Of a DNA stretch of 37,128 nucleotides, positions 17,731 through 35,672 are shown piece by piece; the first letter of the stretch is position 1, and each line of letters starts with the position of its first letter. A program made the position numbers and the translations under genes. The DNA comes from Syntrophobacterales bacterium (GTDB lineage Bacteria > Desulfobacterota > Syntrophia > Syntrophales > UBA2192), in assembly GCA_018053845.1 (NCBI GenBank), contig JAGPKU010000020.1, forward strand, positions 1-37,128. Direction: 5' to 3'. The notes under the pieces were generated by a model. The model was not told where the DNA came from. It saw only the letters and a list, made by a program, of their open reading frames with translations, and searched no databases.

Positions 17731-18857
17731 GCTACTTCGAGATCCTCAACCTCGACCGGGAACCCTTCTCCAACTCCCCGGAGCCGGAGTTCTTCTTCGA
17801 GGCCCCCCAGCACGTCCACTGCCTCCAGCAGCTGGAGATCTCCATCCGCCTGCGCCGGGGGCTCAACGTCGTCATCGGGGACGTGGGGACGGGGAAAACG
17901 ACGCTTTCCCGCATGCTGATCCGCAAGCTCCACGGGGACGACACCGTGGAGTTCCACCTGCTCATGGACCCCGATTTCGGGGGGCCCATCCAGTTCCTGG
18001 CGGGCATCGCCCGGATGCTGGGCGCCGTGGATTCCACCCGCGGCCTGACGGAGTGGCAGCTCAAGGAGGCGATCAAGCAGTACCTTTTCCGCCGGGGGAT
18101 CGATGAGGACAAGATCGTCGTCCTCATCATCGACGAGGGGCAGAAGCTCCCGGGGTTCTGCATCGAGATTCTGAGAGAGTTCCTCAACTACGAGACGAAC
18201 CGCTTCAAGCTCCTGCAGATCGTCCTGTTCGCCCAGCCGGAGTTCAACGCCGTCCTCGAGCGCCGGGAGAACTTCGCCGACCGGATGAACGTCTGCCTGC
18301 GCCTCGGGCCGCTGGGCTTTACCCAGATGCGCCGGATGATCGAGCACCGCATCGCCCAGGCGAGCCAGGCCGGCCACGATCCCGTCGAGTTCACCCTGCC
18401 GGCCCTCGCGGCCATCTACCTGGCCACGGGCGGCGTGCCGCGCAAGGTGGTCATGCTCTGCCACCAGGTCATCCTGGCGATGATCGTCCGCAACCGCTCG
18501 CGGGCGGGGTGGCTGCTCGTGCAGTCGTGCCTGCGGAACCGCACCGCGTACCGAAGGAGGCGGCGCCGGATCGGCTGGGGGGTGGCCGCCGTGCTGGCGG
18601 TCTCGGCCCTGGCCGTTCTCGCCGGGGTCTCGGTGCGGCCCGACAAGACCGGTTCGTCGGGCGAGCGCACGCCGCCGGCCTACCAGGCGCGGATCTCGGA
18701 CAAGACCGTCCACCCCCTGGCCTCGGCGCCGTCGGTTCCCTGGCAGCCCGCGGCGGCCATGGCCGGCGCGGCCGGACCGACAGCGGCCCCCCTGTTCCGG
18801 AAGAGCCTCCCGCGGGAGGCGCCCGCTGTGCCGCAGTCCCCGTCGGGGGCGCGCTGA
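17727..18857 (+). CDS. MshM/ExeA-like AAA ATPase with TM anchor
   Basis: This 376-residue protein has the family opening YFEILNLDREPFSNSPEPEFFF, Walker A GDVGTGKTT, Walker B VVLIIDEGQKL and a sensor region FAQPEFNAVL. Proteins of this group (ExeA, GspA, MshM) help insert or assemble the secretin across the cell wall. After the ATPase domain (about 1-265) there is a basic stretch RRRRRRIGWG and one TM helix, then only an Ala/Pro-rich periplasmic tail of about 75 residues. The peptidoglycan-binding domain of ExeA is missing. The ATG overlaps the secretin stop, so the two are coupled. In MSHA loci this gene also follows mshL. Confidence 0.87.
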   Translation: MSYFEILNLDREPFSNSPEPEFFFEAPQHVHCLQQLEISIRLRRGLNVVIGDVGTGKTTLSRMLIRKLHGDDTVEFHLLMDPDFGGPIQFLAGIARMLGAVDSTRGLTEWQLKEAIKQYLFRRGIDEDKIVVLIIDEGQKLPGFCIEILREFLNYETNRFKLLQIVLFAQPEFNAVLERRENFADRMNVCLRLGPLGFTQMRRMIEHRIAQASQAGHDPVEFTLPALAAIYLATGGVPRKVVMLCHQVILAMIVRNRSRAGWLLVQSCLRNRTAYRRRRRRIGWGVAAVLAVSALAVLAGVSVRPDKTGSSGERTPPAYQARISDKTVHPLASAPSVPWQPAAAMAGAAGPTAAPLFRKSLPREAPAVPQSPSGAR

Positions 18858-18957
18858 CCGCCGTCCCCCGCGGGTACGCCGGGCCGGGCCCGCGGACGGC
18901 AGGGGCACGACGGGGCGCGTGCAGACCGTAAAACCGAAGGAAGGAAAGGGCAAGACC

Positions 18958-20673
18958 TTGAGAGTCCGAAAGAAACTGGGTGAAATGCTCATCGATGCCG
19001 AGGTCCTCAACGAGGAACAGCTCAGGCATTTTCTCGGCGAGCAGAAGAAGACGGGGATGAAACTCGGCAAGCTGCTGATCCAGCAGGGCATCCTGTCGGA
19101 AACCCAGATGGTCGACCTGCTGAGCCGGCAGCTCAAGATCGAAAAGTACCACCCCGACAAGTATCCCGTCGATCTCAGCCTCGCCGCCGTCTTCCCCGCC
19201 GAGACGGCCCAGAAGTACCAGGTGGCGCCGCTCAAGAGAAAAGGCCGTCTGCTCACGATCGCCATGACGGACCCGGTGGACATCAACGCCCTGGACTACA
19301 TCGAGTCGCTCACCAACGAGGAGGTCGAGACGGTCGTCTGCACGGAGCGCGAGCTCAACCAGCTCATCGGCCAGATCTACGGCATGCAGTCGGGGCTGGG
19401 CGGGGTGCTGGAGAGCCTCGAGGAGATGAAGTTCGACTCCGGTGTCGACGCCGAGGCGGCCGCCGAATACACCGACGATCTGCAGGTGAGCCCCAGCTCC
19501 ATCATGGGGATGGCCGAGGAGGCGCCCATCGTGCGCCTCGTGAATTCCATCATCTCCCAGGCGGTCCGGGAGGGGGCCAGCGACATCCACATCAGCCCCC
19601 AGATGAAGAACGTGCAGGTGCGGTTCCGCATCGACGGCAGGCTCCACGAGGTGCCCGCGCCGCCCAAGCAGATGTTCCTGCCCATCATTTCGCGCATCAA
19701 GATCCTCGCGAACATGGACATCGCCACCTCCCGCATTCCCCAGGACGGCCGCTTCACCGTCAAGATGGAGAACAAGGAGATCAACGTCCGCGTCTCCTCC
19801 ATCCCGACGATCTACGGCGAGAACCTGGTCCTGCGGCTGCTGGACATGGGCGCCGGCGTCTACTCGCTCGACCGTCTGGGGATGGTCAAGGAGGACCGCG
19901 ACAAGATCGACTCCATCATCAACAAGCCCTACGGGATGATCCTCAGCTCGGGCCCCACGGGCAGCGGCAAGAGCACGAGCCTCTACGCCATCATCCGCGA
20001 GATCAACCGGCCCGACATCCACATCATCACCTTGGAGGACCCCGTCGAGTACCGCGTCGAGAAGGTGCGCCAGGTCCAGCTCAACCGAAAGGCCGGCATG
20101 ACCTTCGCGAGCGGCCTGCGGTCGATCCTGCGCCAGGACCCCGACGTGATCATGGTCGGCGAGATCCGCGACGCCGAGACGGCGGGCATCTCCGTGCAGG
20201 CGGCCCTCACGGGGCACCGGGTGCTGAGCACGGTGCACACCAACGACGCCGCGGGGGCCATCACCCGCCTCATCGACATGGGGATCGAGCGGTTCCTCGT
20301 CTCGTCGGTGCTGCTGGCGACCTTCGCCCAGCGGCTCGTCCGGACCATCTGCCCCTACTGCGTGGAGCGATACCGGCCCAACGAGAAGGTGATCGCCGCC
20401 TGGGGCCTGCAGGTCGACGGGGCCAATTTCCAGCGCGGCCGGGGCTGCCCGGCCTGCATGGGGACGGGCTACCGGGGGCGGACGGGGATCTTCGAGATCG
20501 TTGTCAACGACGAGGAGGTCCAGGACATGATCCTGCGGGGGATGGCGGCCCAGGAGATCAGCCGGACCCTCAAGCAGAAGGGCAAGCTGCGGACCCTCAA
20601 GGACGACGCCATGAGCAAGGTGCTCTCCGGTGTGACCACCATCGAGGAGGCCTCGGCGGCGGTCATGGTGTAG
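18958..20673 (+). CDS. Pilus extension ATPase (MshE/GspE-like)
   Basis: This protein of about 571 residues is the hexameric motor that drives pilus assembly. The N-terminal part (RKKLGEMLIDAEVLNEEQL and GKLLIQQGILSETQMVDLLSRQL) is an MshEN-type domain, which in MshE binds cyclic-di-GMP. The catalytic part shows Walker A GPTGSGKST (about 331-339), the Asp box region EDPVEYRVE, Walker B VIMVGEIRDAET (about 395), the His box LSTVHTNDA and a tetracysteine zinc site (CPYC about 464, CPAC about 496). I prefer a TTG start at 18958, with AAGGAAAGG upstream and the family N-terminus; a GTG at 18919 would add 13 residues. Confidence 0.92.
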   Translation: MRVRKKLGEMLIDAEVLNEEQLRHFLGEQKKTGMKLGKLLIQQGILSETQMVDLLSRQLKIEKYHPDKYPVDLSLAAVFPAETAQKYQVAPLKRKGRLLTIAMTDPVDINALDYIESLTNEEVETVVCTERELNQLIGQIYGMQSGLGGVLESLEEMKFDSGVDAEAAAEYTDDLQVSPSSIMGMAEEAPIVRLVNSIISQAVREGASDIHISPQMKNVQVRFRIDGRLHEVPAPPKQMFLPIISRIKILANMDIATSRIPQDGRFTVKMENKEINVRVSSIPTIYGENLVLRLLDMGAGVYSLDRLGMVKEDRDKIDSIINKPYGMILSSGPTGSGKSTSLYAIIREINRPDIHIITLEDPVEYRVEKVRQVQLNRKAGMTFASGLRSILRQDPDVIMVGEIRDAETAGISVQAALTGHRVLSTVHTNDAAGAITRLIDMGIERFLVSSVLLATFAQRLVRTICPYCVERYRPNEKVIAAWGLQVDGANFQRGRGCPACMGTGYRGRTGIFEIVVNDEEVQDMILRGMAAQEISRTLKQKGKLRTLKDDAMSKVLSGVTTIEEASAAVMV

Positions 20674-20733
20674 AGGCGCAGAGGGTCGAGGGGAAGGTAG
20701 ACGGGTCACGAATCCCTTGTCATTGTATTGACG

Positions 20734-21969
20734 ATGCCGAAATATTCCTACGAAGCCATCAACGAGACCGGTGCGAGCGTCAACGGCACGATCGAGGCGG
20801 ATTCGCCCGATGCGGCCCGGACGCTCCTGCTCAACCGCGGCTGGATCCCTTCCCGGGTCGCAGGGGCGTCGGAGCGCGCCATCCTCCCCGGGATCTCCTG
20901 GACGAGCCTGCAGCAGAGGGTGGGCGGAGTCTCCATGCAGGAGCTCATCCTCTTCACGAAGCAGTTCCGCACCATGTTCCTCGCCGGTGTCCCGATCATG
21001 CGGCTCCTGGAGGTCCTCGAGGTGCAGGTGGCCAACCCGAAGCTCAAGCAGATCGTGACGGAGATCTCCCAGGACGTGCGGGAAGGCGCGCCGCTTTCCG
21101 ACGCCATGGCGAAGCACCCCAAGACCTTCAACGCCCTGTACCGAAGCATGATCAAGGCCGGCGAGGCCAGCGGCACGATCCCGGAGGTCCTGCAGCGGCT
21201 CATCTACATCCTGGAGCACGAGCACAAGATCAAGTCCGACGTGAAGTCGGCCCTCCAGTACCCGATCATCGTCGTGGCGGCCCTGGGCATCGCCTTCTTC
21301 GTGCTGCTCAACTACGTCATCCCCCGCTTCGTGGGCATCTTCGCCCGCGTGGGCGTCGAACTGCCGTGGCCGACGAAGGTGAGCCTGTTTCTCCACCGCC
21401 TCCTGACGGATTACTGGTTCGTCACGCTCGCCCTGCTGATCGGCCTGATCGCGGCAGCGGGCTACTATTTCAGGACCGAGCAGGGCCGCTTTGTGCGGGA
21501 CGCCTTCCTGCTGCGGGTCCCCCTGCTGGGGCCCCTGTTCATGAAGTCGGCCATGTCCCGCTTCGCCAGCATCTTCTCCATCCTCCAGGCCAGCGGCGTG
21601 CCCGTCATGAACTCCCTGCAGATCCTCTCGGGGACGATCGGCAACACGGCCATCGCCCGGGAGTTCGACCAAGTGCGGGACCGTGTCGAGGAGGGCCGGG
21701 GGATCTCGGGGCCCCTGAGCACGGCACGCTACTTCACGCCCATGGTCATCCAGATGGTCGCGATCGGGGAGGAGTCGGGCCAGCTCGACGAGATGCTCCA
21801 GGCCGTCTCCGTCCACTACGACGACGAGGTGGCCTTCGCGGTCAAGCGCCTCTCCGATGCCATCGGGCCGGTCCTGGTCGTGGGCCTGGCCTTCGTCGTC
21901 GGGTTTTTCGCCCTTGCCGTCTTCCTGCCCATGTGGGATCTGACCAAGATCGCCACCAAGGGGTTTTAA
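20734..21969 (+). CDS. Pilus inner-membrane platform protein (MshG/GspF/PilC-like)
   Basis: This protein of about 411 residues is the polytopic platform on which the ATPase acts. It opens with PKYSYEAINETGASVNGTIEA, normal for the family. Two T2SSF domains follow, the first with LILFTKQFRTMFLAGVPIMRLLEVLE and KAGEASGTIPEVL, the second with SRFASIFSILQASGVPVMNSL and AIGEESGQLDEML. Three TM segments are visible. Helices near 170 and 220 bound the central loop, and a last helix lies near the C-terminus. The ATG at 20734 has no good SD, and the 60-nt gap to the upstream gene is the least compact junction in this part of the operon. Confidence 0.92.
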   Translation: MPKYSYEAINETGASVNGTIEADSPDAARTLLLNRGWIPSRVAGASERAILPGISWTSLQQRVGGVSMQELILFTKQFRTMFLAGVPIMRLLEVLEVQVANPKLKQIVTEISQDVREGAPLSDAMAKHPKTFNALYRSMIKAGEASGTIPEVLQRLIYILEHEHKIKSDVKSALQYPIIVVAALGIAFFVLLNYVIPRFVGIFARVGVELPWPTKVSLFLHRLLTDYWFVTLALLIGLIAAAGYYFRTEQGRFVRDAFLLRVPLLGPLFMKSAMSRFASIFSILQASGVPVMNSLQILSGTIGNTAIAREFDQVRDRVEEGRGISGPLSTARYFTPMVIQMVAIGEESGQLDEMLQAVSVHYDDEVAFAVKRLSDAIGPVLVVGLAFVVGFFALAVFLPMWDLTKIATKGF

Positions 21970-21976
21970 GGCCGAC

Positions 21977-23302
21977 ATGCAGAAATCACGGTTCCAGATC
22001 AGCCTCTACGTCCTGATCCCGATCATCTTCAGCGGCATCACGGTCTTTGCCGTGATCGTCACGTACCAGCTCGTCGACTTCTACACGAAGTACCCAGCGG
22101 AGACGCCGTGGCTGCTCAGGACCTGGGGGATCGGCATCGCGCTGTTCACCTTCCTGTGCGCGCTGCTGGTGACCTGGCTCATCCTGCGGCCCATCAAGAA
22201 ATTCATCCGCGACGCCGAGAACCTGCCCGCCTTCCCGAAGTCCCAGATCCAGAGCGCCGTGGACCAGAAGGCCGACGACATCAGCCAGTTCAACATCATC
22301 TTCGAGCAGGTGACGAGCCTCCTCTCCAAGGTGGAGGCGCGCGAGCTCTTCCCCGAGATCATCGGCCAGAGCAAGGTCATGCGAGGGATCTTCAGCCAGA
22401 TCCTCAAGGTGGCCCCGACGGACGCCACGGTGCTCATCACGGGGGAGAGCGGCACGGGCAAGGAGCTGGTCGCCCAGAGCATCTACCAGCACAGCCTTCG
22501 CAAGGAGGGGCCCTTCATCAAGCTCAACTGCGTCGCCATCCCGGAGGGGCTGCTGGAGAGCGAGCTCTTCGGCCACGAGAAGGGGTCTTTCACGGGCGCC
22601 ACGGCGCAGAAGCGGGGAAAGTTCGAGCTGGCCCACGGCGGCACCATCCTGCTCGACGAGATCGGGGACATGCCGCTGGCAACCCAGGCCAAGCTCCTGC
22701 GGGTTCTCCAGGAGAAGGAGTTCGAGCGGGTGGGCGGGACGAAACCCATCCGGGTCGATATCCGCATCATCGCCTCGACGAACAAGAACCTCATGAAGCT
22801 GGTCCAGGAAGGAAAGTTCCGGGAGGACCTCTTCTACCGACTCAATGTCTTCTCCCTGCACCTGCCCCCGCTGAGGGACCGCCGGGAGGACATCCCCGCG
22901 CTCGCTCAGGGGTTCCTGGAGACGGCCCCGAAATCGGCCGAGATCTCGTCATCGGCCCTGCAGCTCCTCATGGGTTTCCAGTGGCCGGGCAACGTACGGG
23001 AGCTCAAGAACGTCATCGAGCGGGCCGCCGTGATGGCGGAAAACGGGGTGATCGAACCCCAGCATCTGCCGGCCCAGATCTCGGGGGGTATCGTCGGTCA
23101 GGCCATGCAGGAGGTGCCGGAACAGGCCAACCTCGATGATCGGCTCGCCGAGATCGAGAAGCGGTTCATCATCGACGCCCTCACCCGGGCCGACGGGGTG
23201 CAGGTCAGGGCGGCGCAGATCCTGGGGATCAAGGAGCGAAGCCTGTGGCACCGGGTGAAAAAGTACAACATCGACGTCACGACGATCAAGAAATCTACAT
23301 AA
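21977..23302 (+). CDS. Membrane-anchored sigma-54-dependent activator (bEBP)
   Basis: This 441-residue protein combines two N-terminal TM helices (about 10-33 and 50-72) with a complete enhancer-binding protein. The periplasmic loop is only about 17 residues. A HAMP-like linker (RPIKKFIRDAENL) precedes the AAA+ domain: Walker A TGESGTGKE (about 154-162), GSFTGA (203-208, Ser for the usual Ala), LLDEIGDM and an R-finger region FREDLFYRLNVFSL. A Fis-type HTH ends it (RAAQILGIKERSLWHRVKKY). There is no receiver or PAS domain. It starts 7 nt after the platform gene with AAGG overlapping that stop. It most likely activates the sigma-54 promoters found in this window. Confidence 0.92.
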   Translation: MQKSRFQISLYVLIPIIFSGITVFAVIVTYQLVDFYTKYPAETPWLLRTWGIGIALFTFLCALLVTWLILRPIKKFIRDAENLPAFPKSQIQSAVDQKADDISQFNIIFEQVTSLLSKVEARELFPEIIGQSKVMRGIFSQILKVAPTDATVLITGESGTGKELVAQSIYQHSLRKEGPFIKLNCVAIPEGLLESELFGHEKGSFTGATAQKRGKFELAHGGTILLDEIGDMPLATQAKLLRVLQEKEFERVGGTKPIRVDIRIIASTNKNLMKLVQEGKFREDLFYRLNVFSLHLPPLRDRREDIPALAQGFLETAPKSAEISSSALQLLMGFQWPGNVRELKNVIERAAVMAENGVIEPQHLPAQISGGIVGQAMQEVPEQANLDDRLAEIEKRFIIDALTRADGVQVRAAQILGIKERSLWHRVKKYNIDVTTIKKST

Positions 23303-23442: not shown

Positions 23443-23458
23443 TGGCACGGATGATGCT
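23443..23458 (+). promoter_or_regulatory. Sigma-54 promoter of the prepilin gene
   Basis: TGGCAC-GGATG-ATGCT has the full -24 box, including the G after TGGCAC, and a -12 box with one mismatch if the last position is A or T. GG (23444-23445) and GC (23456-23457) are exactly 10 nt apart. Predicted transcription start is about 23469. Type IV pilin genes in other bacteria often use sigma-54. Confidence 0.72.
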
Positions 23459-23768: not shown

Positions 23769-24149
23769 ATGTCAAGGAGGCGATCGAAAGTGCGCAATCA
23801 GAAAGGTTTTACGTTGATCGAAATCATCGCCGTGCTGGTGATCCTGGGCATCCTCGCGGCCGTGGCCGTGCCGAGGTTCATGAACCTTACGGAGGAAGCC
23901 TCAAAAAAGGCCGCCATGCAGGCAGTGGCTGAGGGAAAGTCTAGACTTTCTAATCAATTCGCGAAATTTCTGCTGGAAAGAAGCGGTGCAATTCCATCAA
24001 CGGCCTCGCTCGTTGCCGTGGCGGCCACAGACGCTGGAGATTACTCGCTGTCATTTTCAGCATCAGGTAGCAACGTCATCATTACAGCTCGGCTAAAGAG
24101 CAACCCCGCACAGATTTTCAACACGGGGACTTGGATCAAACCGCAATAA
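23769..24149 (+). CDS. Type IV prepilin, probable major pilin (MshA-like)
   Basis: This 126-residue prepilin has a basic 13-residue leader (MSRRRSKVRNQKG) cut between G13 and F14. The mature protein starts FTLIEIIAVLVILGILAAVAVPRF, with Glu at mature position 5. After removal of the leader about 113 residues remain. There is no cysteine pair, so the usual C-terminal disulfide loop of type IVa pilins is absent. GGAGG lies about 11 nt upstream, a strong signal compared with the next pilin. The 5' half is GC-rich like its neighbours; the globular half is much richer in A and T. It lies just after the activator gene and its own sigma-54 promoter. Confidence 0.93.
   Translation: MSRRRSKVRNQKGFTLIEIIAVLVILGILAAVAVPRFMNLTEEASKKAAMQAVAEGKSRLSNQFAKFLLERSGAIPSTASLVAVAATDAGDYSLSFSASGSNVIITARLKSNPAQIFNTGTWIKPQ
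23935..23950. repeat. 16-bp palindrome inside the pilin gene at a composition break
   Basis: GAAAGTCTAGACTTTC is a perfect palindrome located in codons of the pilin stretch EGKSRLS. It marks the place where base composition changes: hand-counted rows are 65% GC at 23821-23880 and 40% at 23941-24000. The second prepilin encodes nearly the same residues without the palindrome. Confidence 0.6.
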
Positions 24150-24331: not shown

Positions 24332-24706
24332 ATGTCTTTGCCCGTTTCCCAGAGGGGATTCACCCTGATCGAGCTTGTCGCCATCCTCGTCATTCTGGGT
24401 GTTCTCGCCTCCATCGCAGTGCCGAAATACTATGATCTCACACGCGAATCCCAGAATCGCGCGGCCCTGCAGGCCGTCGTTGAAGGGAAATCCCGCCTTT
24501 CCATGGGGTATGCACGATTCTTTCTCGACAGGAGCTTTCCCCCAACCCCCTCGAGCCTTGTAGAAGTCGTGGGGGCCACGACAAGCGTCGGCGACTACAT
24601 CCTGACGCTCTCCGTCCTTCCGGCCTCCTCGGATATCCGCATCGAGGCAGCGGGTAGAGGCGGCATCCCGGGCACGAGCAGCGGTGTCTGGACGATGCCG
24701 AAGTAG
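24332..24706 (+). CDS. Type IV prepilin, second copy (probable minor pilin)
   Basis: This 124-residue prepilin has a 9-residue leader (MSLPVSQRG) and a mature start FTLIELVAILVILGVLASIAVPKY with Glu at position 5. It is a clear paralogue of the upstream pilin: both continue with a helix ending QAV-EGKSRLS and a segment ending FFLDRS or FLLERS. Cysteines are absent. The best SD-like sequence, GAGG, is 13 nt from the ATG, so translation is probably weaker than for the first pilin. Two hairpins separate the genes. The stop is only 10 nt from the convergent TMTC-like gene. Minor-pilin status is inferred from these expression features. Confidence 0.9.
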   Translation: MSLPVSQRGFTLIELVAILVILGVLASIAVPKYYDLTRESQNRAALQAVVEGKSRLSMGYARFFLDRSFPPTPSSLVEVVGATTSVGDYILTLSVLPASSDIRIEAAGRGGIPGTSSGVWTMPK

Positions 24707-24716
24707 ACAATCCGGC

Positions 24717-26819
24717 TCATCTTTCCAAGACCTGACGCTTCACGTCGTCTCGAATGATTCGTGCGAGCTTGTGCGGGTCGACCTCGTAGACCGCCGCGGC
24801 ATTCAGGGCCGCGAGGTCGTCGAGCCACGCGCGGAGGGTTTCCGTTTCTTTCCGGACAAGACACCGCGCCGTGACACGCGCGAGGGCGGGCCTGTCTTTG
24901 ACCCGCTCGTAGATTTCCACAAGTGCAAGTAGGGCACGCGCATTGGCCGGGTTCAGTCGGAGAGCTTCCTCCCAGCACTGTGCCGCCTTCTTCCAGCAGC
25001 CCAGCTGCCGCCATGCCTCCCCCGAGATTTCCCAGGGCCTCGGGTCGGTCCACCTCAATCTCATGGCCGATGCCGCCGACTTGAGGGCGTCCCTCGCATT
25101 TCCTTTTTTCAGGAGCACCAGACCGTAGCAGTTCATTATCTCGGTATTGTTCGGCTGCCGGGGCGCGTGTACCTTGATCAAGGCCCATGCCTTCTCGACG
25201 TCCCCCCTTTGCAGGTGAATCGTCGCAAGACCGACAACGGCAGAAGCGAACCCCGGGAATCGATCCAGGGCCTTGATGAACTGCTCCTCCGCCCGGCCTA
25301 TGTCCTTGGCTTCTTTGAGGTAATAAAGTCCCAAGCCGTAAGACGCAATCCCTACCTGCCGCAGATTGGTGTCCCGGTTCAGACCCTCGGCTGTCTCAAA
25401 TTCCCTGACGGCCTGCTCATACATCCCAGCCTCGTAGTAATGCTTGGCCAGGTTGATGCGGGGACGGCTGATATTAGGGGACTTCTGAACGTTGTCAAGC
25501 CAGAGATGAAGGTCGGAGCTGACAACCTCGTTTCGCTCGAAGGTCGTGTGGCCTTGAAAAGCCAGAAGAAGCGCAAATCCCCCTGCCATGAAAATCTGAA
25601 ATTTCCTGCTGTATGAAAAATAGTGCAGCACGTTGACCATGACAGTCGCGATCGGCACGAAGAAGAACATCGACGGGATGTAGTTGCGGTGCTCGAAGAT
25701 CAACTCCAAGGGGATGATGGTCCCTTCGATGAGGTGATTCAGAAAGAAAAAGAGGACCGCGAAGGAGATCAAGGGGTATTGCCGGGCCTTCAGGATTGCC
25801 AATGAGAGGCTGAGGATGATCCCTGCAATGGCCGCAAGCGTCGTCCACGGGTCGATCAGGCTGCGCGAGATGTCGATGTCGTGCAGGAGCGTCAGCCTGG
25901 AAGGAATCGGGTAGAGGAGCAGAGACACGTAGAAGAAGAGAACCCTCCCTTGCGTCAGGAGCCGCTCCAGCGGCGAGAACGGCCTCACGCCCGACTCGTA
26001 GACGGCGCGCTCCATGGTGAAGTCGGTGTAGAGCAGACCCAGCCCGATCGCGACTGCGAGCGGCAGAACCGCCCACCTCATGGTTCTCCGCACGGACCCG
26101 GCAGAGATCCCCTGGATGAAAAAAAGGTCGTAGAGCAAGATGGTGATCGGTAAGACGGCCGTGTTCTCCTTGGTGGCAAAAGCCGCGAGGGCGGCCAGGC
26201 CGCCGAAGAAGTACCATGCGATGCGGAGACGCCCCGCTTCCGCCCTTCGGCCCCGGGCGTAGAAATATAGCGACGCGACGTAAAAGAGCCCGGCCATGCT
26301 CGCCATCCGCTGCACGATGATCGAGACGGCATGGACGTGCAGGGGGCTTGTAGCCCAGAGAAACGACGACAGCAGGGCCACGGGGTACGCGACGGCGCCG
26401 TACTTCTCCCTCATGGGCGGCAGCGTCAGGGTGAGCCGGACCAGCAGGAACAGGAAGAACGCCGTCAGTGCGTGGATCAGGAAGTTGACGACGTGATAGC
26501 CGGTGACGGCCGTCCCCCCGAAGAAATAGTTAAGTCCGAAGGTGAGGTAGGACAGGGGACGGGTCAGGTGCCAGCCCCGGGGTTCCACCGCTGTCCCGTA
26601 GAAGGTCTGGCGGATGTCATCCCAGGAAAGGGTCTGGAGATGGACATTGCGATTGTCGACGATGTTGTGATAATCGTCGAAGTGCCATTCGCCGAAAAAG
26701 CTGTTGCTGTAGATGATCAACAGCATGACCAGCAGGGAGACCACGGCGAACGCAAGGCCGCGCCCGCCGGATTGTGCTGCTGCACGTGTTGAGGCAACGC
26801 TCTCTTTCTCGATCATCAT
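24717..26819 (-). CDS. TMTC-like multi-TM glycosyltransferase candidate with TPR tail
   Basis: This protein of about 700 residues starts with a TM helix followed by EWHFDDYHNIVDNRNV. Its acidic pair D48-D49 lies in the first periplasmic loop, as in GT-C fold enzymes, and the wording resembles TMTC O-mannosyltransferases. About ten further hydrophobic helices follow to about residue 420. The last 260 residues are TPR repeats (KHYYEAGMYEQAVREFE, QCWEEALRLNPANARAL). Such proteins transfer a sugar from a lipid carrier to protein. It is convergent with the prepilins (10 nt apart) and has its own sigma-54 promoter, so a role in pilin glycosylation is a fair inference. GAGG lies 6 nt before the ATG at 26819; a second ATG follows at once. 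Confidence 0.75.
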   Translation of the reverse strand: MMIEKESVASTRAAAQSGGRGLAFAVVSLLVMLLIIYSNSFFGEWHFDDYHNIVDNRNVHLQTLSWDDIRQTFYGTAVEPRGWHLTRPLSYLTFGLNYFFGGTAVTGYHVVNFLIHALTAFFLFLLVRLTLTLPPMREKYGAVAYPVALLSSFLWATSPLHVHAVSIIVQRMASMAGLFYVASLYFYARGRRAEAGRLRIAWYFFGGLAALAAFATKENTAVLPITILLYDLFFIQGISAGSVRRTMRWAVLPLAVAIGLGLLYTDFTMERAVYESGVRPFSPLERLLTQGRVLFFYVSLLLYPIPSRLTLLHDIDISRSLIDPWTTLAAIAGIILSLSLAILKARQYPLISFAVLFFFLNHLIEGTIIPLELIFEHRNYIPSMFFFVPIATVMVNVLHYFSYSRKFQIFMAGGFALLLAFQGHTTFERNEVVSSDLHLWLDNVQKSPNISRPRINLAKHYYEAGMYEQAVREFETAEGLNRDTNLRQVGIASYGLGLYYLKEAKDIGRAEEQFIKALDRFPGFASAVVGLATIHLQRGDVEKAWALIKVHAPRQPNNTEIMNCYGLVLLKKGNARDALKSAASAMRLRWTDPRPWEISGEAWRQLGCWKKAAQCWEEALRLNPANARALLALVEIYERVKDRPALARVTARCLVRKETETLRAWLDDLAALNAAAVYEVDPHKLARIIRDDVKRQVLER

Positions 26820-26979: not shown

Positions 26980-26995
26980 TGCAATAACATTGCCA
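26980..26995 (-). promoter_or_regulatory. Sigma-54 promoter of the TMTC-like gene
   Basis: Read on the minus strand the site is TGGCAA-TGTTA-TTGCA, 10 of 11 fixed positions of the consensus, with GG and GC 10 nt apart. Predicted transcription start is about 26969, leaving a leader of about 150 nt. Confidence 0.72.
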
Positions 26996-27124: not shown

Positions 27125-27140
27125 TGGCACCGACCTTGCA
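27125..27140 (+). promoter_or_regulatory. Full-match sigma-54 promoter of the glycan operon
   Basis: TGGCAC-CGACC-TTGCA matches all 11 fixed positions of TGGCAC-N5-TTGCA, followed by AAAA. GG (27126-27127) and GC (27138-27139) are 10 nt apart. The predicted transcript start (about 27151) falls next to the ATG at 27152, so the mRNA would have almost no leader. Confidence 0.78.
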
Positions 27141-27151
27141 AAATCCGGCAT

Positions 27152-28252
27152 ATGCGCGTCCTACTGGTGAGCACATCCTATCCACGAGGTCCCGATGACT
27201 GGAAGGTTCCCTTCATCAAGAACCTGGTCTATGCCCTTGCAGCTGCGGAGTCGGTGGATCTTCGGCTTTGCGCTCCGCCCGGCGACGTCCCGGATGGGGT
27301 CTCGAATATATTAACGGCCGAGGAATTGGCGTGGCTTCAGGGCATGCTTGCCTCCGGGGGCATCGCGCATCTGTTGCGCAGCGAGGGGTGGAAGGCGTCG
27401 GGCACCGTTCTCCGGCTGCTCGGGCTGCAGAGGAGGGCATACCGGAGAGCCGCGGACGTCGATCTCTTTCATGTCAACTGGCTGCAAAATGCCATTCCCC
27501 TGTGGGGCATCGACAAACCCGCCGTGATCAGCGTGCTGGGGACCGATTTCGCGCTGCTGGATCGGCCCGGCATGGTCAATCTGCTGAGGGCTGCACTCGG
27601 GCGCAGGAGAGCCGTGATCGCGCCCAACGCCGGGTGGATGACTGGGCGCCTGGATACCCTGTTCGGCGATCTTGCGGAAATCCGAACGATTCCCTTTGGA
27701 GTCGATCCGCCGTGGTTCGAAATACGGCGCGATCATGCCGGAAAACGGCGCAAGTGGCTGGTTGTCCTCCGGGTAACGGCAAAGAAGATGGGACATCTCT
27801 TCCCGTGGGGGGAAGGGCTTTTCGGCAAGGAGGATGAGCTGCACGTCCTGGGGCCCATGCAGGAGAAGATCGACATGCCCCCCTGGGTCCGCTTTCACGG
27901 AGCCACGCATCCCCGGGAGCTGAGGGAAAAATGGTTCCCTGAGGCGGCGGGTCTCATTACACTGAGCCAACACGACGAGGGAAGGCCTCAGGTGATCCTC
28001 GAAGCGATGGCCTCGGGGTTGCCCGTCATCGCATCCGATCAGCCGGCTCACCGGGACGTAATCCGGCACGGGGAAACCGGTTGGCTCGTGTCGTCGCAAG
28101 ATGAATTTCTCGAGGCCGTCGCCTGGCTCGGGAACAGAGAGAACAACTTGCAGATGGGAAAGCGGGCCAGAACGTGGGTCCTGGAAAACATAGGGACCTG
28201 GAGTGACTGTGCGACGCGTTACGTGGACGCCTATCGGACCGTTGTGAGGTAG
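27152..28252 (+). CDS. Glycosyltransferase family 4
   Basis: This 366-residue cytoplasmic GT-B enzyme transfers a sugar from an activated donor to a growing glycan. The N-terminal half opens RVLLVSTSYPRGPDDWKVPFIKNL, and FHVNWLQNAIPLWG lies in the acceptor domain. The C-terminal half carries SQHDEGRPQVILEAMASGLPVIASD, the family 4 donor-binding region, and GETGWLV. The ATG fits the family N-terminus, but no SD is visible, and a sigma-54 promoter ends only 12 nt upstream, pointing to a nearly leaderless mRNA. It heads a three-gene plus-strand unit with an epimerase and a GT2. Donor and acceptor are unknown. Confidence 0.88.
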   Translation: MRVLLVSTSYPRGPDDWKVPFIKNLVYALAAAESVDLRLCAPPGDVPDGVSNILTAEELAWLQGMLASGGIAHLLRSEGWKASGTVLRLLGLQRRAYRRAADVDLFHVNWLQNAIPLWGIDKPAVISVLGTDFALLDRPGMVNLLRAALGRRRAVIAPNAGWMTGRLDTLFGDLAEIRTIPFGVDPPWFEIRRDHAGKRRKWLVVLRVTAKKMGHLFPWGEGLFGKEDELHVLGPMQEKIDMPPWVRFHGATHPRELREKWFPEAAGLITLSQHDEGRPQVILEAMASGLPVIASDQPAHRDVIRHGETGWLVSSQDEFLEAVAWLGNRENNLQMGKRARTWVLENIGTWSDCATRYVDAYRTVVR

Positions 28253-28260
28253 AAAGGCAG

Positions 28261-29193
28261 ATGGAAAACGAAACGCTGCTCATCGGCGGGACGGGGTTTG
28301 TCGGCCAGGCACTGGCGCCCCGCCTGACCGCAGCCGGCCACCGGGTCCACCTCGTCGCGCGGCGGCCCGTGCCCATGCAGTTCGGCGGTCGTGCGGTTCT
28401 GCACACCAGCCCCCTGGACAATGCAAAACTGCTGCACGCGCTGTTGCCCGAATGCCGGTCGGTCTTCTACCTGGCCTCGGACAGCACGCCGGGAACTTCG
28501 GCCTCCGAACCGATGTGGGAATCCGAGCTGAACCTCGGGCCTGCCCTGCGGTTCCTCGACATCCTGCAGAAATACGAGCACGTTCATCTTTTCTTCGTCT
28601 CCTCGGGCGGGACGGTCTACGGAAACCCCCGAACCCTGCCGGTGGACGAGGACCAGCCCCTGTCGCCTCTCTCCTACCACGGGGCGGGCAAGATCGCGAT
28701 GGAGGCCTTTCTGCAGGCCTACTGCAGGCAATTCGGACGAGGCGTGACCATCCTGAGGCCCTCGAACTTCTACGGCCCGGGCCAGCCCTATCGGAAAGGG
28801 TTCGGCATCGTGCGCGGCATGCTGGAACATCTGCGGCGGGATCGCCCCGTGGAGATCTGGGGGGACGGGGAAAATATCCGTGACTTCATCTACATTGAGG
28901 ATTTTGTAGATGCCTGCGTTCGCCTCGTGGAAAGGGGACAGGCGGCCAGGACGATCGATGTCTTCAATGTGGGTTACGGCTCGGGGGTCAGCATCAACCG
29001 GCTGTGCGACCTTGTCGAGTCGGTGACGGGCGGGCGGATTCGAAAGGAATACCGCGCCGGACGTTCGATCGACGTCCGGTCGGTTGTCCTGGATTGTTCC
29101 AAGCTGAATCGACATGCGGGGTGGAAGCCCGCCACGGATCTGGAAACGGGCCTTGCAAGGACATGGGAATGGCTCAAGACGCAGCCGCTGTAA
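28261..29193 (+). CDS. NAD-dependent sugar epimerase/dehydratase (GalE-like)
   Basis: This 310-residue extended SDR protein acts on nucleotide sugars. It has the NAD-binding GGTGFVG (9-15), FFVSSGGTVYGN with the catalytic Ser/Thr region, LRPSNFYGPGQPYR and DFIYIEDFVDAC. The active-site segment reads Y139-H-G-A-G-K144, one residue longer than the normal Y-x3-K; in register with the lysine, the tyrosine position is His140. This may be a real variant or reduced activity. The gene starts 8 nt after the GT4 and overlaps the GT2 that follows, so all three are probably co-translated. The product sugar cannot be predicted. Confidence 0.87.
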   Translation: MENETLLIGGTGFVGQALAPRLTAAGHRVHLVARRPVPMQFGGRAVLHTSPLDNAKLLHALLPECRSVFYLASDSTPGTSASEPMWESELNLGPALRFLDILQKYEHVHLFFVSSGGTVYGNPRTLPVDEDQPLSPLSYHGAGKIAMEAFLQAYCRQFGRGVTILRPSNFYGPGQPYRKGFGIVRGMLEHLRRDRPVEIWGDGENIRDFIYIEDFVDACVRLVERGQAARTIDVFNVGYGSGVSINRLCDLVESVTGGRIRKEYRAGRSIDVRSVVLDCSKLNRHAGWKPATDLETGLARTWEWLKTQPL

Positions 29194-30212
29194 CCTCGGC
29201 AGCGGATCCGGTCTGTTCGATCTGCATTGCCAACTACAATGGCGAAGACGTTATCGGTCCGTGCCTGGAATCGATCCGCAACCAGGATTTCGATCAGCCT
29301 CTGGAGATCATCGTCCACGACGATGCGTCGACGGACGATTCTGTCGGGATCATACGCGCTCAGTTCCCGGAAGTCACCCTCATCGCAAGCGAGGAGAACG
29401 CAGGCTACTGCGTCAGCAACAACCGGATGGTTTCCCGCGCACGGGGCCGATACATTCTCCTGCTGAACAATGACGCGGTGCTGCAGCGGGATGCCGTCAG
29501 CACCCTCTTTCGCCATGCCGAAGAGCAACCGGGCCCTGCCATCCTGGGGCTTCCTCAGTACGATATCGAGACGGGCGCGCTGATCGACCGCGGCAGCCTG
29601 CTGGACCCATTCATGAACCCGGTGCCGAATCTGGATCCGGGCAGGACGGATGTGGGCATGGTCATGGGGGCGTGCATGTGGATCCCGAGAGCCCTGTGGG
29701 AGGAGCTGGGAGGCTTCCCGGAGTGGTTCGGAAGCCTGGCGGAAGATATGTACCTGTGCTGCCTGGCCCGGTTGAGAGGGGTCCCCGTGACGGTCCTGCC
29801 CGGCTCCGGTTACCACCACTGGGTCGGCCGGAGCTTCAAGGGGGGCAAGGTTGTCGGGAACGCCCTCCAGACGAGCTATCGGCGCCGCGCTCTGAGCGAA
29901 CGGAACAAGAGCTTTACAATGCTGATATGCTACCCGCCGCCAGCCGCGATAATACTGATTCCATTTCATTTCCTCGTGCTTGCCGGGGAGGGGCTCGTTA
30001 TTTCTCTGTTGAAGAGGAATGGCCGGGTCTTTTCTGAGATCTACTGGTTTTCGCTGCAGAACGTCTGGAAAGAGAAACGTCGGCTGTGGGGGCTGAGACG
30101 GGCCGTCCAGTCCAGCAGATGCATTTCATCACGCATATATCTCTCTACACATAAATGGATGCCGTACAAGCTGAACATGCTGCTCAAGTTCGGCCTGCCC
30201 AATATCGAATGA
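29169..30212 (+). CDS. Glycosyltransferase family 2 with C-terminal membrane segment
   Basis: This 347-residue enzyme has a GT-A fold. VCSICIANYNGEDVIGPCLESI opens it, followed by HDDASTDDS (DD at 51-52, nucleotide binding), ENAGYCVSNNRM and LLLNNDAVLQ with the metal-binding acidic pair, then GACMWIPRALWEELGGF. A hydrophobic stretch near residue 250-285 (PPPAAIILIPFHFLVLAGEG) probably anchors it to the membrane. Such proteins add rhamnose or similar sugars in O-antigen and EPS pathways. I chose ATG 29169, which lies 7 nt from AAGGA and overlaps the epimerase end by 25 nt; the ATG at 29163 is too close to that SD. Confidence 0.87.
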   Translation: MAQDAAAVTSAADPVCSICIANYNGEDVIGPCLESIRNQDFDQPLEIIVHDDASTDDSVGIIRAQFPEVTLIASEENAGYCVSNNRMVSRARGRYILLLNNDAVLQRDAVSTLFRHAEEQPGPAILGLPQYDIETGALIDRGSLLDPFMNPVPNLDPGRTDVGMVMGACMWIPRALWEELGGFPEWFGSLAEDMYLCCLARLRGVPVTVLPGSGYHHWVGRSFKGGKVVGNALQTSYRRRALSERNKSFTMLICYPPPAAIILIPFHFLVLAGEGLVISLLKRNGRVFSEIYWFSLQNVWKEKRRLWGLRRAVQSSRCISSRIYLSTHKWMPYKLNMLLKFGLPNIE

Positions 30213-30236
30213 TCCTCCTCAAGGATTTTTTTGCCG

Positions 30237-30505
30237 TCACGGAATCGGTCTGTCCCGGTTCCCTGTGATTGATTCCCACACACTCCAGAGGACTTGCGCA
30301 ACGCCGGTATTGCGATCGCTTCGGATCATCGCCAGCCTGTCCATTGTGCCGCGCAGGTCTTCGATCATGGCGAGGGACTCCTCGGCAGAAGCATTATCCA
30401 CAATGACAACCTTCCGAATCGGCGCAGGATCTTGTCGATTCTCCCGTGCAAATCCCAATCGGGAAAATAGGTGATGATCACCGTACGGAAGACTTCTCGC
30501 TGCAT
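30237..30505 (-). pseudogene. Frameshifted, truncated family 2 glycosyltransferase
   Basis: On the minus strand an ATG at 30505 with GGAGG begins MQREVFRTVIITYFPDWDLH and continues GRIDKILRR, then the frame closes. The neighbouring frame continues the same family with RKVVIVDNASAEESLAMIEDL and RSDRNTGVAQ, so one frameshift lies near 30420. After NTGVAQ the text no longer looks like a glycosyltransferase and stops at 30237, leaving only about the first 80 codons of a gene that is normally about 300. It starts 34 nt after the upstream GT gene and is the decayed end of the minus-strand polysaccharide cluster. A sequencing error could explain the frameshift but not the truncation. Confidence 0.75.
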
Positions 30506-30538
30506 GTCCGCCTCCGCGAGGGTTTCTGTTCCCTCGCA

Positions 30539-32101
30539 TTATATCCTCGCGGCCGCCTCACGGATCCTGTAGATGACGGATTTCGCGATACCCTGCACGG
30601 CGGATGCCGATGTCTGTAGACCCTTTCGGGCTGCATCCACCTGGTAGTAGATGGATGGGAAGAGGGCGTACAGGGAATTGATTTTGTCGCCGATTCCGGA
30701 TGGATCCAGTTCGGCCAGCAATCGGCAATCCCGCGAATCGATCATTTTCGTCGCTGGGATTTTACCGGGCCTGTGCGGCAGCGCGTCGATCTGTGTGTTC
30801 AGCGAATCGAGTTTGCTTTCGAAAAGCCTGTCCTCTTCTCGCATGGCTGTCCGCATCTGACTGGCGGCTTGACGAATTACCGCTTTGTTTCTTGCCTGAC
30901 GCGTCACATAGTCCACATAAGCCTTCTCGTCCAACGCACGCTCGGAGTACGAGAACGTTGGCTGATTCACATGTAATATGCTTTCGCCGGGACCATAGAC
31001 TGCGACGGGAAACGCTTCGCCGTATCCGACGGCTTCATGGACGGCACCGAGCGAGGGCATCGGGAACGATTCGAGGAAAAGATCGCTGGCCTTGTAGTAC
31101 ACGATTGGATTTACGACAATGCCCGTCAGGCGCACGTTGGGGTTCTTTCGCAACCCGTTCGATACGAGAGAGCTATTCTGATCGAGTCCGACGATCAGAA
31201 AATAAGCATCAGGAAGTTTTTCCGTGAGCGTTTCCAGCGTCCGAAAGAAATGATAGCCATCCATCGGTGTGTAATAGCGCTCATACGCAAGTGACATGAT
31301 CACGGTTGCATCCTCCGGCAGTGACAACTCCCGCTTAGCGGCGGCCTTGTCCACCGTGCCGTCGTCTATCGGTTGCATCCCGGCGACTCCTGTCAGCAGT
31401 GCTGTAGACCTTGCAAATCGATGCTTTTTGCTGATGTCACGATAATATTCGACAGTGTTGACAATGATGTCGGACACGGTACTTCCGAGGTTGAAGCTGA
31501 AATGCGCATGATTGAACATCGCAACAGGTGGACCGCCCTCTTTTGCAAAGGCGAGCACCGGGATGCAATCATGGGGGTGCGTATGCAGAATGACTCTGTC
31601 GCAGGCCCGGGATATTCTTCGCAGCATCGCCGCCCGACGGATAAGGCTGCTGAATGCTGGCAACCGCACAAAGGAACTTCCGCTTCCTGTGATCCGATCG
31701 CGCATGACACGAGGTGGATCATGCCATTGATTCGTCAGAACAATCAGGTGCTCGGCACTGGAATTTCTCTCCACCCACTTGGCAAGAACCCTCGAGTGAC
31801 CCCCGATAGCGTGCAGGGTTGTTGCCACGTGCAATGTGCGGCTGGCGCGATGCTTCGCAGCCGGAACAGGAATATTCCCGCCGACCGGATGGTCTTTCAG
31901 TCCCTCACCAACGTCCAGAACCAAATTTTCGAGCGCGCCGTCCGCAAATCGTCCCGGGTGATGGCGCCACGCAAAGTAGGCTACACGCTGTATGCTGTTT
32001 AGAAACAGCGGTAGACCATATCGCCTACAGGCTATCGTGAACTCTATGCCGTTTTCATAGAGGTTGCTGTTCATCTCGAGCTTGGCGATATTTCCTTCCA
32101 T
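30539..32101 (-). CDS. Glycosyltransferase family 4-like protein, long form
   Basis: This protein of about 520 residues resembles GT-B glycosyltransferases. An N-terminal extension of about 90 residues precedes TLHVATTLHAIGGHSRVLAKWV, HTHPHDCIPVLAFAKEGG and MFNHAHFSF. The C-terminal half has VIMSLAYERYYTPMDG, YFLIVGLDQNSS and ESFPMPSLGAVHEAVGYGEAFPVAVY, the donor-binding region. A helical tail of about 130 residues follows, unusual for GT4. I prefer ATG 32101 because AAGGAA is about 6 nt upstream; an ATG at 32128 has no SD. It follows the flippase on the same strand, so a role in the same surface glycan is likely. Donor sugar is unknown. Confidence 0.78.
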   Translation of the reverse strand: MEGNIAKLEMNSNLYENGIEFTIACRRYGLPLFLNSIQRVAYFAWRHHPGRFADGALENLVLDVGEGLKDHPVGGNIPVPAAKHRASRTLHVATTLHAIGGHSRVLAKWVERNSSAEHLIVLTNQWHDPPRVMRDRITGSGSSFVRLPAFSSLIRRAAMLRRISRACDRVILHTHPHDCIPVLAFAKEGGPPVAMFNHAHFSFNLGSTVSDIIVNTVEYYRDISKKHRFARSTALLTGVAGMQPIDDGTVDKAAAKRELSLPEDATVIMSLAYERYYTPMDGYHFFRTLETLTEKLPDAYFLIVGLDQNSSLVSNGLRKNPNVRLTGIVVNPIVYYKASDLFLESFPMPSLGAVHEAVGYGEAFPVAVYGPGESILHVNQPTFSYSERALDEKAYVDYVTRQARNKAVIRQAASQMRTAMREEDRLFESKLDSLNTQIDALPHRPGKIPATKMIDSRDCRLLAELDPSGIGDKINSLYALFPSIYYQVDAARKGLQTSASAVQGIAKSVIYRIREAAARI

Positions 32102-32178
32102 GTCAGGTTCCTTCAGCAAAGCCGTCATGAACGAAACGGCTCAGATGTATCTGATGATTATGGGGTTCCTTTCGACGA

Positions 32179-33645
32179 TTAAACGAAAGTGGTCCCCTTC
32201 AGCCACGCTTTCGTCCGACAGCCCTCCACGGCATTCATAAACGCCTCCAGACGAAACATCCGGCACAGGCAGGCATACACAAGGATTCCAATGATTATCT
32301 GCACGATGAAAGCAGCCAGCGGATTTGGAAACGGAAATAGTCCGGCTAAAAAAACGACGCCGCCCATGACCCCTGCCAGGATCAGATATGCGATCATGTC
32401 CCGCAGTTGCTCCCCGATCGGATACCGGAGAAGAACCCCCGTGTAACAACTGTTCAGGAAATAGCAGATGCCCGAGAATACAATCATTCCATAGATCATC
32501 ACAGCTATGCCGTACTGCCAGGTGACGGCAATGTTGATGACAATCAATACCTTTTTGATGATCTCCAGGCGCAGAAACAGGTCAGACCTCCCCAAGGCTT
32601 GTAGTACATTTAAGTTCATCAAGTGCAGGGGATAAAGAAGCCCCATTACGCAAAGCAGCTGCAGATAGGGTACGCAGGCAACCCATTTTTCAGTTAATAG
32701 TACGAGGACAAGCGGATGAGCGATCACCGCCATGCCGATCATGACGGGGGAATTTACCAGCACGAGGAAAGTAAGAGCCTTTCTCAGGCATATTTTCAAA
32801 CGTACCGGATCATCCTGGATGGCAGAAAATACCGGAAACGTCACCCTCGCGACCATTCCTGATAATGTCCGCGACGGAAGTTCGGCCAGAGCCATGGCAC
32901 AAGTAAAAAAGCCGAGGGGGCCCGCTGAAAACAACCGGCCGATCACGACATAGTAAAGGTTGTCAAATACCTGGTTGAGCAACCCGGATGCCAGGAGACG
33001 CGAACCGAAACCGAACATGTCCCGCAGGGACTGAACGCTGAAGAGAAAAGAAGGGCGCCAGGGATTGAAGAGCCAGAGAAAGACCGTTTGGAAAAAACTG
33101 AGCGACACTTGTTGTGCGACGAGGCTCCATACGCCGTACCCGGCAATGGCCAAGGCGATCCCGAGCAGGCCGGACAGGCCGCCCGAAAGCAGGCTCACTT
33201 TCGCTTGTGTTTTGAAGTCGATTTGCTTCGCCAGGATGGTTCCTTGGATCAGGCCAAAGGAATTAAGTGCAATGATCAGGGACATTGCCCGGGCAATGGG
33301 CGTCAGGGTCGGCTGGCCATAGAAGGTGGCAATGAAGGGAGCTGACATATATAAAATCCCCGATGCCGCCAGGCCAACCGCGATGTTAAAGTAGAAGATG
33401 GAGCAGAGATCGGCCTGCGTTGCTTCCCGTTTCTGAATCAGCGCCGCCCCGAAGCCGCTTTCGATAAAAGCATTGGCTACGGCAATGAATACAGACAGCA
33501 TGGCAATCAGACCGAACTGTTCCGGAAACAGTAACCTCGCCAGGAGAATCCCGATAACGAACTTCACAAGCTGGAGCCCGATCGCTTCGGTGAAACTCCA
33601 GGAAAGGGCATGCAGCGTGATGGATTTCAGAGATTCGTTGCTCAT
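32179..33645 (-). CDS. Polysaccharide flippase (Wzx/WzxC-like, MOP superfamily)
   Basis: This 488-residue inner-membrane protein has about 12-14 hydrophobic helices. The N-terminus (LVKFVIGILLARLLFPEQFGLIAML) and the IESGFGAALIQKREATQADLCSIFYFN segment are characteristic of WzxC-type exporters. It moves undecaprenyl-linked oligosaccharide repeat units across the inner membrane for O-antigen or exopolysaccharide assembly. It sits between an acyltransferase and a GT on the same strand, as expected in a Wzx/Wzy cluster. No Wzy polymerase is seen within the window. Codon use is more AT-rich than in the left part of the window. Confidence 0.9.
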   Translation of the reverse strand: MSNESLKSITLHALSWSFTEAIGLQLVKFVIGILLARLLFPEQFGLIAMLSVFIAVANAFIESGFGAALIQKREATQADLCSIFYFNIAVGLAASGILYMSAPFIATFYGQPTLTPIARAMSLIIALNSFGLIQGTILAKQIDFKTQAKVSLLSGGLSGLLGIALAIAGYGVWSLVAQQVSLSFFQTVFLWLFNPWRPSFLFSVQSLRDMFGFGSRLLASGLLNQVFDNLYYVVIGRLFSAGPLGFFTCAMALAELPSRTLSGMVARVTFPVFSAIQDDPVRLKICLRKALTFLVLVNSPVMIGMAVIAHPLVLVLLTEKWVACVPYLQLLCVMGLLYPLHLMNLNVLQALGRSDLFLRLEIIKKVLIVINIAVTWQYGIAVMIYGMIVFSGICYFLNSCYTGVLLRYPIGEQLRDMIAYLILAGVMGGVVFLAGLFPFPNPLAAFIVQIIIGILVYACLCRMFRLEAFMNAVEGCRTKAWLKGTTFV

Positions 33646-33775
33646 ACAATGCGATTACCCGGCAGGGCCGGCTTGGAGCGATTTGATCTGCAACGGGGCA
33701 TCGGCGTCCACAAAGGATGGCGCAGAATCGGGCTCGGCTGAACCTGTCATTCGTGGCGTCCGGCCGTTGCTTCTG

Positions 33776-34291
33776 CTACCCGAGAAAATGCTCATAGTTT
33801 TTTAATACGCCCGTTTTGTTACGTTCCCCGATACGCTTGTTATTTATGTAAATTCCCCACGGAGCGAGGTCTCTGCTCACGACAGAACAGGCGCCAACCA
33901 CGGCGCCTTCGCCTATGGTTACCCCGGGCAGAACGACACTGTTCGCCCCGATAATACAAAATTTGCCGATATGAATCGGTGCCATGCGTACATTCCTGTA
34001 TTGCAGAGCGATGGTGGGATTGCCGAACCCCCAATCTTTAAAATCTTCTGTGCCGGTTAAAATTCTGCAGCCTTGAGATAGTCCCGAAAAATCCTCCATT
34101 GTTGTCTCCTCTCCTCCAGTTATGGAGCTGAAACAGGCAATGTGGACATAGTTGCCGATTTTTATTTTCTTCTTTGCGTAAATCAGAACAAAATCGTCGA
34201 GGATGACCCCCGTGCCGAATTCCATGTTTTCGACGCCGATTAATTTCGTGAATTCGAACGTCTTGACATTCGAATGATCGGGTCTGCTCAT
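33776..34291 (-). CDS. Hexapeptide-repeat (LbH) O/N-acyltransferase
   Basis: This protein of about 171 residues consists mainly of left-handed beta-helix repeats: VILDDFVLIYAKKKIKIGNYVHIACFSSI and IHIGKFCIIGANSVVLPGVTIGEGAVVGACSVVSRDL. It belongs to the acetyltransferase group that modifies sugars or sugar nucleotides using acetyl-CoA (WbbJ, galactoside acetyltransferase). The start at 34291 lies 7 nt from AGGAG; a further upstream ATG (34315) lacks an SD. Next to a DegT aminotransferase, it could acetylate an amino sugar, but O-acetylation is equally possible. Confidence 0.88.
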   Translation of the reverse strand: MSRPDHSNVKTFEFTKLIGVENMEFGTGVILDDFVLIYAKKKIKIGNYVHIACFSSITGGEETTMEDFSGLSQGCRILTGTEDFKDWGFGNPTIALQYRNVRMAPIHIGKFCIIGANSVVLPGVTIGEGAVVGACSVVSRDLAPWGIYINNKRIGERNKTGVLKNYEHFLG

Positions 34292-34365
34292 CGCAAATCT
34301 CCTTCTATCGTTCATCCTCCAAGTCGAAGGATCGTGGACGCCCCGGCCCCGCCACGAGGATTTGT

Positions 34366-35496: not shown

Positions 35497-35507
35497 AATA
35501 TCGTGTC

Positions 35508-35630
35508 TCAATCATCCCGTTTGTCACATGGCAGGGGATAGTACGAGCCGTAACGTTCATTGAACAGCCCGATGTCTTTTGGGGAGACCATGACCTTGAC
35601 CAGGTGCCCGAGATCCTCGTTTTGTTTCAC
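35508..35630 (-). CDS. Possible small coding frame or gene remnant upstream of DegT
   Basis: A minus-strand frame from GTG 35630 encodes 40 residues with protein-like composition, including KVMVSPKDIGLFNERYGSYY and ending PCDKRDD. Its TGA overlaps a TTG just before the DegT gene. The frame is closed upstream by a stop near 35655. I do not recognise it. It may be a small coupled leader gene, or the C-terminal relic of a lost sugar-pathway gene between WbsX and DegT. No SD is evident. Confidence 0.35.
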   Translation of the reverse strand: MKQNEDLGHLVKVMVSPKDIGLFNERYGSYYPLPCDKRDD

Positions 35631-35672
35631 CCCTAAAGAGCAACAGAGTGCAGCTTCTCATTGACTCGCCCC

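Follow-up and report, generated by a model that had tools for sequence, protein, structure and literature searches.

A gene that converges on the prepilin genes of a pilus operon in a Syntrophobacterales bacterium encodes a membrane protein of a family in Desulfobacterota whose close members nearly always have a pilin gene as a neighbor, and this linkage is the strongest result of our analysis. The protein combines a predicted GT-C glycosyltransferase domain with a tail of tetratricopeptide repeats (TPRs) and resembles the TMTC O-mannosyltransferases of animals. The linkage makes it a strong candidate for an enzyme that specifically serves pilus glycosylation. The DNA analyzed here (the window) is a stretch of 37,128 nucleotides from contig JAGPKU010000020.1 of assembly GCA_018053845.1.

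Genomic setting of the TMTC-like gene

A preliminary description of the window had pointed to an open reading frame with an FDDYHNIVDN segment and a TPR tail, lying convergent with prepilin genes. This reading frame at 24717-26819(-) is real and encodes 700 amino acids with the segment at residues 47-56 (Table 1), and its 3' end lies 10 bp from that of the second prepilin gene at 24332-24706(+). Pilus machinery genes, an NtrC-type activator, and two prepilin genes occupy one side of it. Two alignments of partner pilins revealed no obvious single conserved Ser/Thr acceptor shared among them. The ATPase at 17727-18857 resembles the XrtA/PEP-CTERM-associated family (TIGR03015, below cut-off); it sits in the pilus operon and is kept in the relatives. 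Beyond the pilus operon, at 27152-36788, comes a cluster of sugar genes (GT4, epimerase, GT2, flippase-like, and others).

Table 1. Features of the window around the TMTC-like gene, in window coordinates.
Feature	Positions	Strand	Basis or remark
Pilus machinery	16072-21969	+	Family matches
PilQ-like secretin	16072-17730	+	Family matches
ExeA-like AAA ATPase	17727-18857	+	Family matches
MshE/PilB-like ATPase	18919-20673	+	Family matches
PilC/GspF	20728-21969	+	Family matches
NtrC-type sigma-54 activator	21977-23302	+	PF00158, E 4e-74
Sigma-54-like site upstream of prepilin 1, TGGCACGGATGATGCT	23443-23458	+	One mismatch to consensus; identical in L003 and L004
Prepilin 1, MSHA/GspG-like	23769-24149	+	PF07963, TIGR02532; likely start at 23769
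Prepilin 2, convergent with the TMTC-like gene	24332-24706	+	PF07963
TMTC-like GT-C + TPR protein	24717-26819	-	700-aa ORF, ATG start; AlphaFold mean pLDDT 91.2
C-terminal TPR domain, residues 448-700, predicted periplasmic	24720-25478	-	Pfam TPR models; positive-inside count
Predicted membrane GT-C domain, residues 1-447	25479-26819	-	AlphaFold pLDDT 90.3, pTM 0.91; Foldseek top nine are GT-C enzymes
EHRNY, residues 376-380, counterpart of TMTC motif M7 (ERxxY)	25680-25694	-	Invariant in alignment; motif comparison
FDDYHNIVDN, residues 47-56, first periplasmic loop; TMTC motif M1	26652-26681	-	Alignment, D48 and D49 invariant
Sigma-54-like -24/-12 site of the TMTC-like gene, TGGCAATGTTATTGCA	26980-26995	-	About 160 bp upstream of start codon
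Sigma-54-like site of the divergent GT4 gene	27125-27140	+	Recurs in L004
Divergent GT4-type glycosyltransferase	27152-28252	+	PF13692; possible helper; not conserved in L003

Linkage to pilin genes

Relatives of the protein were gathered by sequence alone, from 39 genome-contig loci and from the best-scoring places of a profile search that covered 395 genomes of the phylum and matched in 160. The contig loci were found with the C-terminal 497 residues as query and then supplied the full-length proteins; prepilins were called by their motif and hydrophobic stretch. We defined the close family as the 60 distinct members scoring at least 494 bits, a boundary set after seeing a gap in the scores (494 to 440) and before the neighbor counts were tabulated, and counted only members with full flanking sequence on both sides. 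Of the 40 close-family members flanked by 2.5 kb or more, 37 have a prepilin gene within 2.5 kb, and all 33 flanked by 4.5 kb have one within 4.5 kb; the corresponding counts in the next score band (380 to 494 bits) are 0 of 14 and 1 of 13. Members whose prepilin lies no more than 1 kb away have it at a median distance of 77 bp. Frequent orthologues without a pilin neighbor had been named beforehand as evidence that would speak against a role in pilin modification, and they proved rare (3/40 and 0/33 at the two distances).

The Fisher p of 2e-10 for these counts comes from related members that are not independent observations, and we find the phylogeny more telling. A FastTree phylogeny places pilin-linked members in a clade of 62 rows (support 99) and in a separate, weakly grouped set of 18 rows, while another clade of 48 rows holds no pilin-linked member. 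Inside the 62-row clade, the partner alternates between an MSHA/GspG-like pilin and PilA, and the orientation between convergent and co-directional, yet the pilin stays. A search by protein family found 16 N_methyl matches in the 2.65 Mb genome of the window, and chance adjacency would therefore amount to a few percent.

Carriers include a complete, named genome, that of Desulfonema magnum strain 4be13 (L011). In five loci (L024, L025, L032, L033, and L037), the TMTC-like gene is present near PilA in tandem copies, which may serve successive sugars or different acceptor sites. A more distant homologue with a weak match to the membrane profile lies near members in several loci (L023:7781-9649(-), L017:7839-9224, L080, L087, L035, L036, and L038); the one in L023, the only one scanned, has a PMT_2 match and TPRs. 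L034 is a family fragment from a possibly misbinned genome labeled Bacteroidales, the sole such label among the contig loci.

Predicted fold, topology, and conserved residues

Pfam detects TPRs alone in the 700-residue protein, from about residue 452 onward, and the membrane domain matches no Pfam or NCBIfam family. The TPRs weakly match the NCBIfam models of PilW and Tgl. A WaaL/Wzy_C O-antigen ligase domain was not found in the protein by Pfam; a single Wzy_C gene lies elsewhere in the genome.

AlphaFold models were computed with 41 sequences in the alignment, for the full length and for residues 1-447 separately. The full-length model proved unsuitable as a Foldseek query because it was swamped by TPR proteins, so the membrane domain was used by itself. 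Its first nine places are GT-C enzymes (fungal Pmt4, ArnT with undecaprenyl phosphate, STT3 proteins, and AglB), with weak E-values (0.03 to 0.16) at probabilities of 0.99 to 1.00. A sequence profile of the membrane domain gave only chance matches against the PDB (E about 1), and the fold assignment therefore rests on the AlphaFold model. Comparison with GT-C structures had been proposed beforehand as a test that could refute the enzyme reading, and the model does have the GT-C fold; as modeled, both the membrane fold and the acidic motif of the first loop place the protein in the GT-C superfamily.

We read eleven transmembrane segments off the model helices, with the TPRs following them, in agreement with the many helices and TPR tail described earlier; helix 283-302 was taken as juxtamembrane, like the helix described in TMTCs (PMC7801869). 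Lysines and arginines lie mostly at predicted cytoplasmic ends (16 versus 6), and because this charge count gives an N-in/C-out topology, we place the TPRs in the periplasm. None of the 32 invariant alignment columns lies beyond residue 448, and most fall in predicted periplasmic loops; they include D48, D49, R87, N97, H109, Q170, R171, K217, E365, and E376-H-R-N-Y380, while no TPR column of the same alignment is invariant. The acidic pair first noticed in the window protein, D48-D49, is thus common to all 41 sequences.

Relation to TMTC proteins

The Pfam signature of TMTC proteins, PF08409 (TMTC_DUF1736), matches neither the window protein nor any other protein of its genome, and it is absent from the families listed for the 41 members. 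Among 297 genomes of the phylum, we found six proteins with PF08409 matches, five of them above the curated cut-off. All six align end to end over the membrane domain with the profile of the TMTC-like family (E 4.5e-23 to 7.4e-68), which supports homology to TMTC through intermediates. The resemblance to TMTC proposed in the preliminary description thus holds as distant homology via intermediate sequences and in the predicted fold, but not as membership in PF08409: by its sequence, the window protein is a distant TMTC relative rather than a signature-bearing member.

Previous work tabulated seven ligand motifs of TMTCs, M1 to M7 (PMC7801869). Comparing the window protein with the human motifs by eye, we recognize five of the seven, M1 (DD), M4 (KE), M5 (D), M6, and M7 (ER..Y), while M2 (SHKSYRP) keeps only RP and M3 (RxD) only R. 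Like the window protein, TMTC1-4 (the animal cadherin O-mannosyltransferases) and bacterial PF08409 proteins have a GT-C domain followed by lumenal or periplasmic TPRs, and the first-loop DD, the KE, and the ER..Y-like motif of the fifth loop appear to be shared as well. Unlike TMTCs, the window protein is without PF08409, keeps M2 and M3 only in part, is bacterial, and is linked to pilins. Full-length TMTC homologues in bacteria, a deltaproteobacterium included, have been noted before (PMC7801869).

Sigma-54-like sites and candidate donor synthases

Exact matches to TGGCA-N6-TTGC occur three times in the window against 0.24 expected. The separate sigma-54 promoter suggested earlier for the TMTC-like gene is borne out insofar as a sigma-54-like site is present at 26980-26995(-) and the two nearest relatives for which upstream DNA is available, L003 and L004, have an equivalent in front of the gene. 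As a family-wide trait the site was rejected, being conserved in close relatives only, with isolated good matches elsewhere. Since an NtrC-type activator sits in the operon, we infer that co-regulation of the TMTC-like gene and the pilin is plausible. At 27125-27140, a strong site leaves a gap of just 12 bp to the start codon of the GT4 gene; an error in the annotation of this start, or in the site itself, is possible.

Two homologues of polyprenyl-phosphate sugar synthases are encoded in the genome, one being ArnC/GtrB-like (PDB match, E 4e-49) and the other, a second GT2, having ArnC and dolichol-phosphate-mannose synthase as its closest matches. Suitable donors could thus be produced; neither synthase is tied to the TMTC-like gene. 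The second GT2, on contig C117 (G000:C117:237-3378; L161), lies about 2 kb from three prepilin-like matches and is possibly a donor synthase near another pilin set.

Discussion

We consider it likely that the TMTC-like protein is a periplasm-facing GT-C glycosyltransferase dedicated to pilins that works with a polyprenyl-phosphate carrier and holds the pilin with its TPRs. Its membrane domain would take a sugar from the carrier and, using the acidic pair of the first loop together with the conserved R, K-E, H-D, and EHRNY of the periplasmic loops for catalysis, would place it in the periplasm on a Ser or Thr of the pilin head while the periplasmic TPR domain holds the pilin. The modeled fold, the invariant loop residues, the distant TMTC homology, the repeated linkage to pilin genes, the sigma-54-like sites kept in close relatives, and the donor synthase homologues of the genome speak for this reading; catalytic activity, the pilin as acceptor, binding of pilin by the TPRs, and the O-linkage are what we infer. 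We count against this reading the weak Foldseek E-values, the partial M2 and M3, and the lack of an obvious conserved Ser/Thr in the pilins.

The protein might instead be an active periplasmic GT-C enzyme with several envelope acceptors, with the pilin one of them or merely a neighbor by regulation. Subfamilies of the same architecture without a pilin link do exist in the phylum (the 0/14 at 380 to 494 bits and the 48-row clade), so the GT-C + TPR fold is not in itself pilin-specific, and PglL is a general enzyme that modifies pilins too (PMC12645811). However, the close family retains its pilin neighbor through changes of pilin type and orientation, and close linkage with the gene of the substrate has been described as a mark of O-OTases dedicated to that substrate, not of PglL (PMC12645811); we consider a broader acceptor range unlikely. 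Loss of catalysis, with the protein serving as an adaptor of TfpY or PilW type for pilin assembly or stability via its TPRs, seems to us very unlikely. Genes beside pilA are indeed described (PMC11841053) that encode non-enzymatic, chaperone-like accessory proteins such as TfpY, and the weak PilW and Tgl matches of the TPRs would suit an adaptor, but conservation centers on the periplasmic loops of the membrane domain (D48, D49, K217, and EHRNY) and no TPR column is invariant; one would not expect invariant loop residues of this kind to persist after loss of catalysis.

The adjacent sugar genes raise the question of whether the TMTC-like gene belongs with the cluster at 27-37 kb, in surface polysaccharide synthesis, and not with the pilus operon. 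The GT4 gene is divergent from it, further sugar genes lie beyond, and some GT-C enzymes modify polysaccharides (PMC11127046). Yet the pilin neighbor is kept across the family, while among the 39 contig loci a GT4 homologue lies beside the TMTC-like gene only in L004, with weak matches in L005 and L034. TPR tails are, to our knowledge, not a known polysaccharide-binding module, and we give a role in polysaccharide synthesis hardly any credence.

The earlier view that the known pilin glycosylation enzymes all differ in architecture holds only in part. It is correct for PglL, TfpO/PilO, TfpM, and PglS, which glycosylate pilins in the periplasm (TfpO, TfpM, and PglS from genes close to that of the substrate) but are of the WaaL/Wzy_C type (PMC12645811), with an O-antigen ligase domain that is missing from the window protein. 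It fails for TfpW of Pseudomonas, a pilin arabinosyltransferase of the GT-C family (Kus 2008, as cited in PMC11841053 and PMC5836110), so GT-C pilin glycosylation as such is already known. TfpW, described as the product of a pilin accessory gene, is matched by the window protein in predicted fold and gene linkage, and differs in that it adds D-arabinofuranose. ArnT and Pmt4 share the predicted fold of the membrane domain in the Foldseek comparison, and ArnT uses undecaprenyl phosphate carriers, but both are without TPRs and have other acceptors. The nearest published hint of a link between TMTC-like proteins and pilins comes from the pilA clusters of Ca. Electrothrix (cable bacteria), also Desulfobacterota, which by their description combine pilA, TPR proteins read by the authors as protein-protein interaction modules, and sugar-modifying enzymes (PMC10580974). 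No paper joining pilin and TMTC turned up in the open-licence literature searched, which is weak evidence; as far as this search goes, a phylum-wide association of pilin genes with a TMTC-like family of GT-C + TPR proteins is new.

With somewhat more conviction than doubt, we suggest that this family, widespread in Desulfobacterota, is their dedicated route of pilin glycosylation and a bacterial counterpart related to the TMTC pathway of animals. The TPRs would select pilins, the family would have come to accompany at least two pilin types, and its tandem copies may attach sugars one after another or act on different sites. Research on the pili of these organisms (sulfate reducers, syntrophs, and cable bacteria) concerns adhesion and electron transfer; the open-licence literature searched yielded no account of their glycosylation. 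If our reading is true, a dedicated pilin sugar enzyme would alter how pilin masses and surface properties are interpreted, and the family would offer a bacterial model for the TMTC proteins, including the purpose of their TPR domain.
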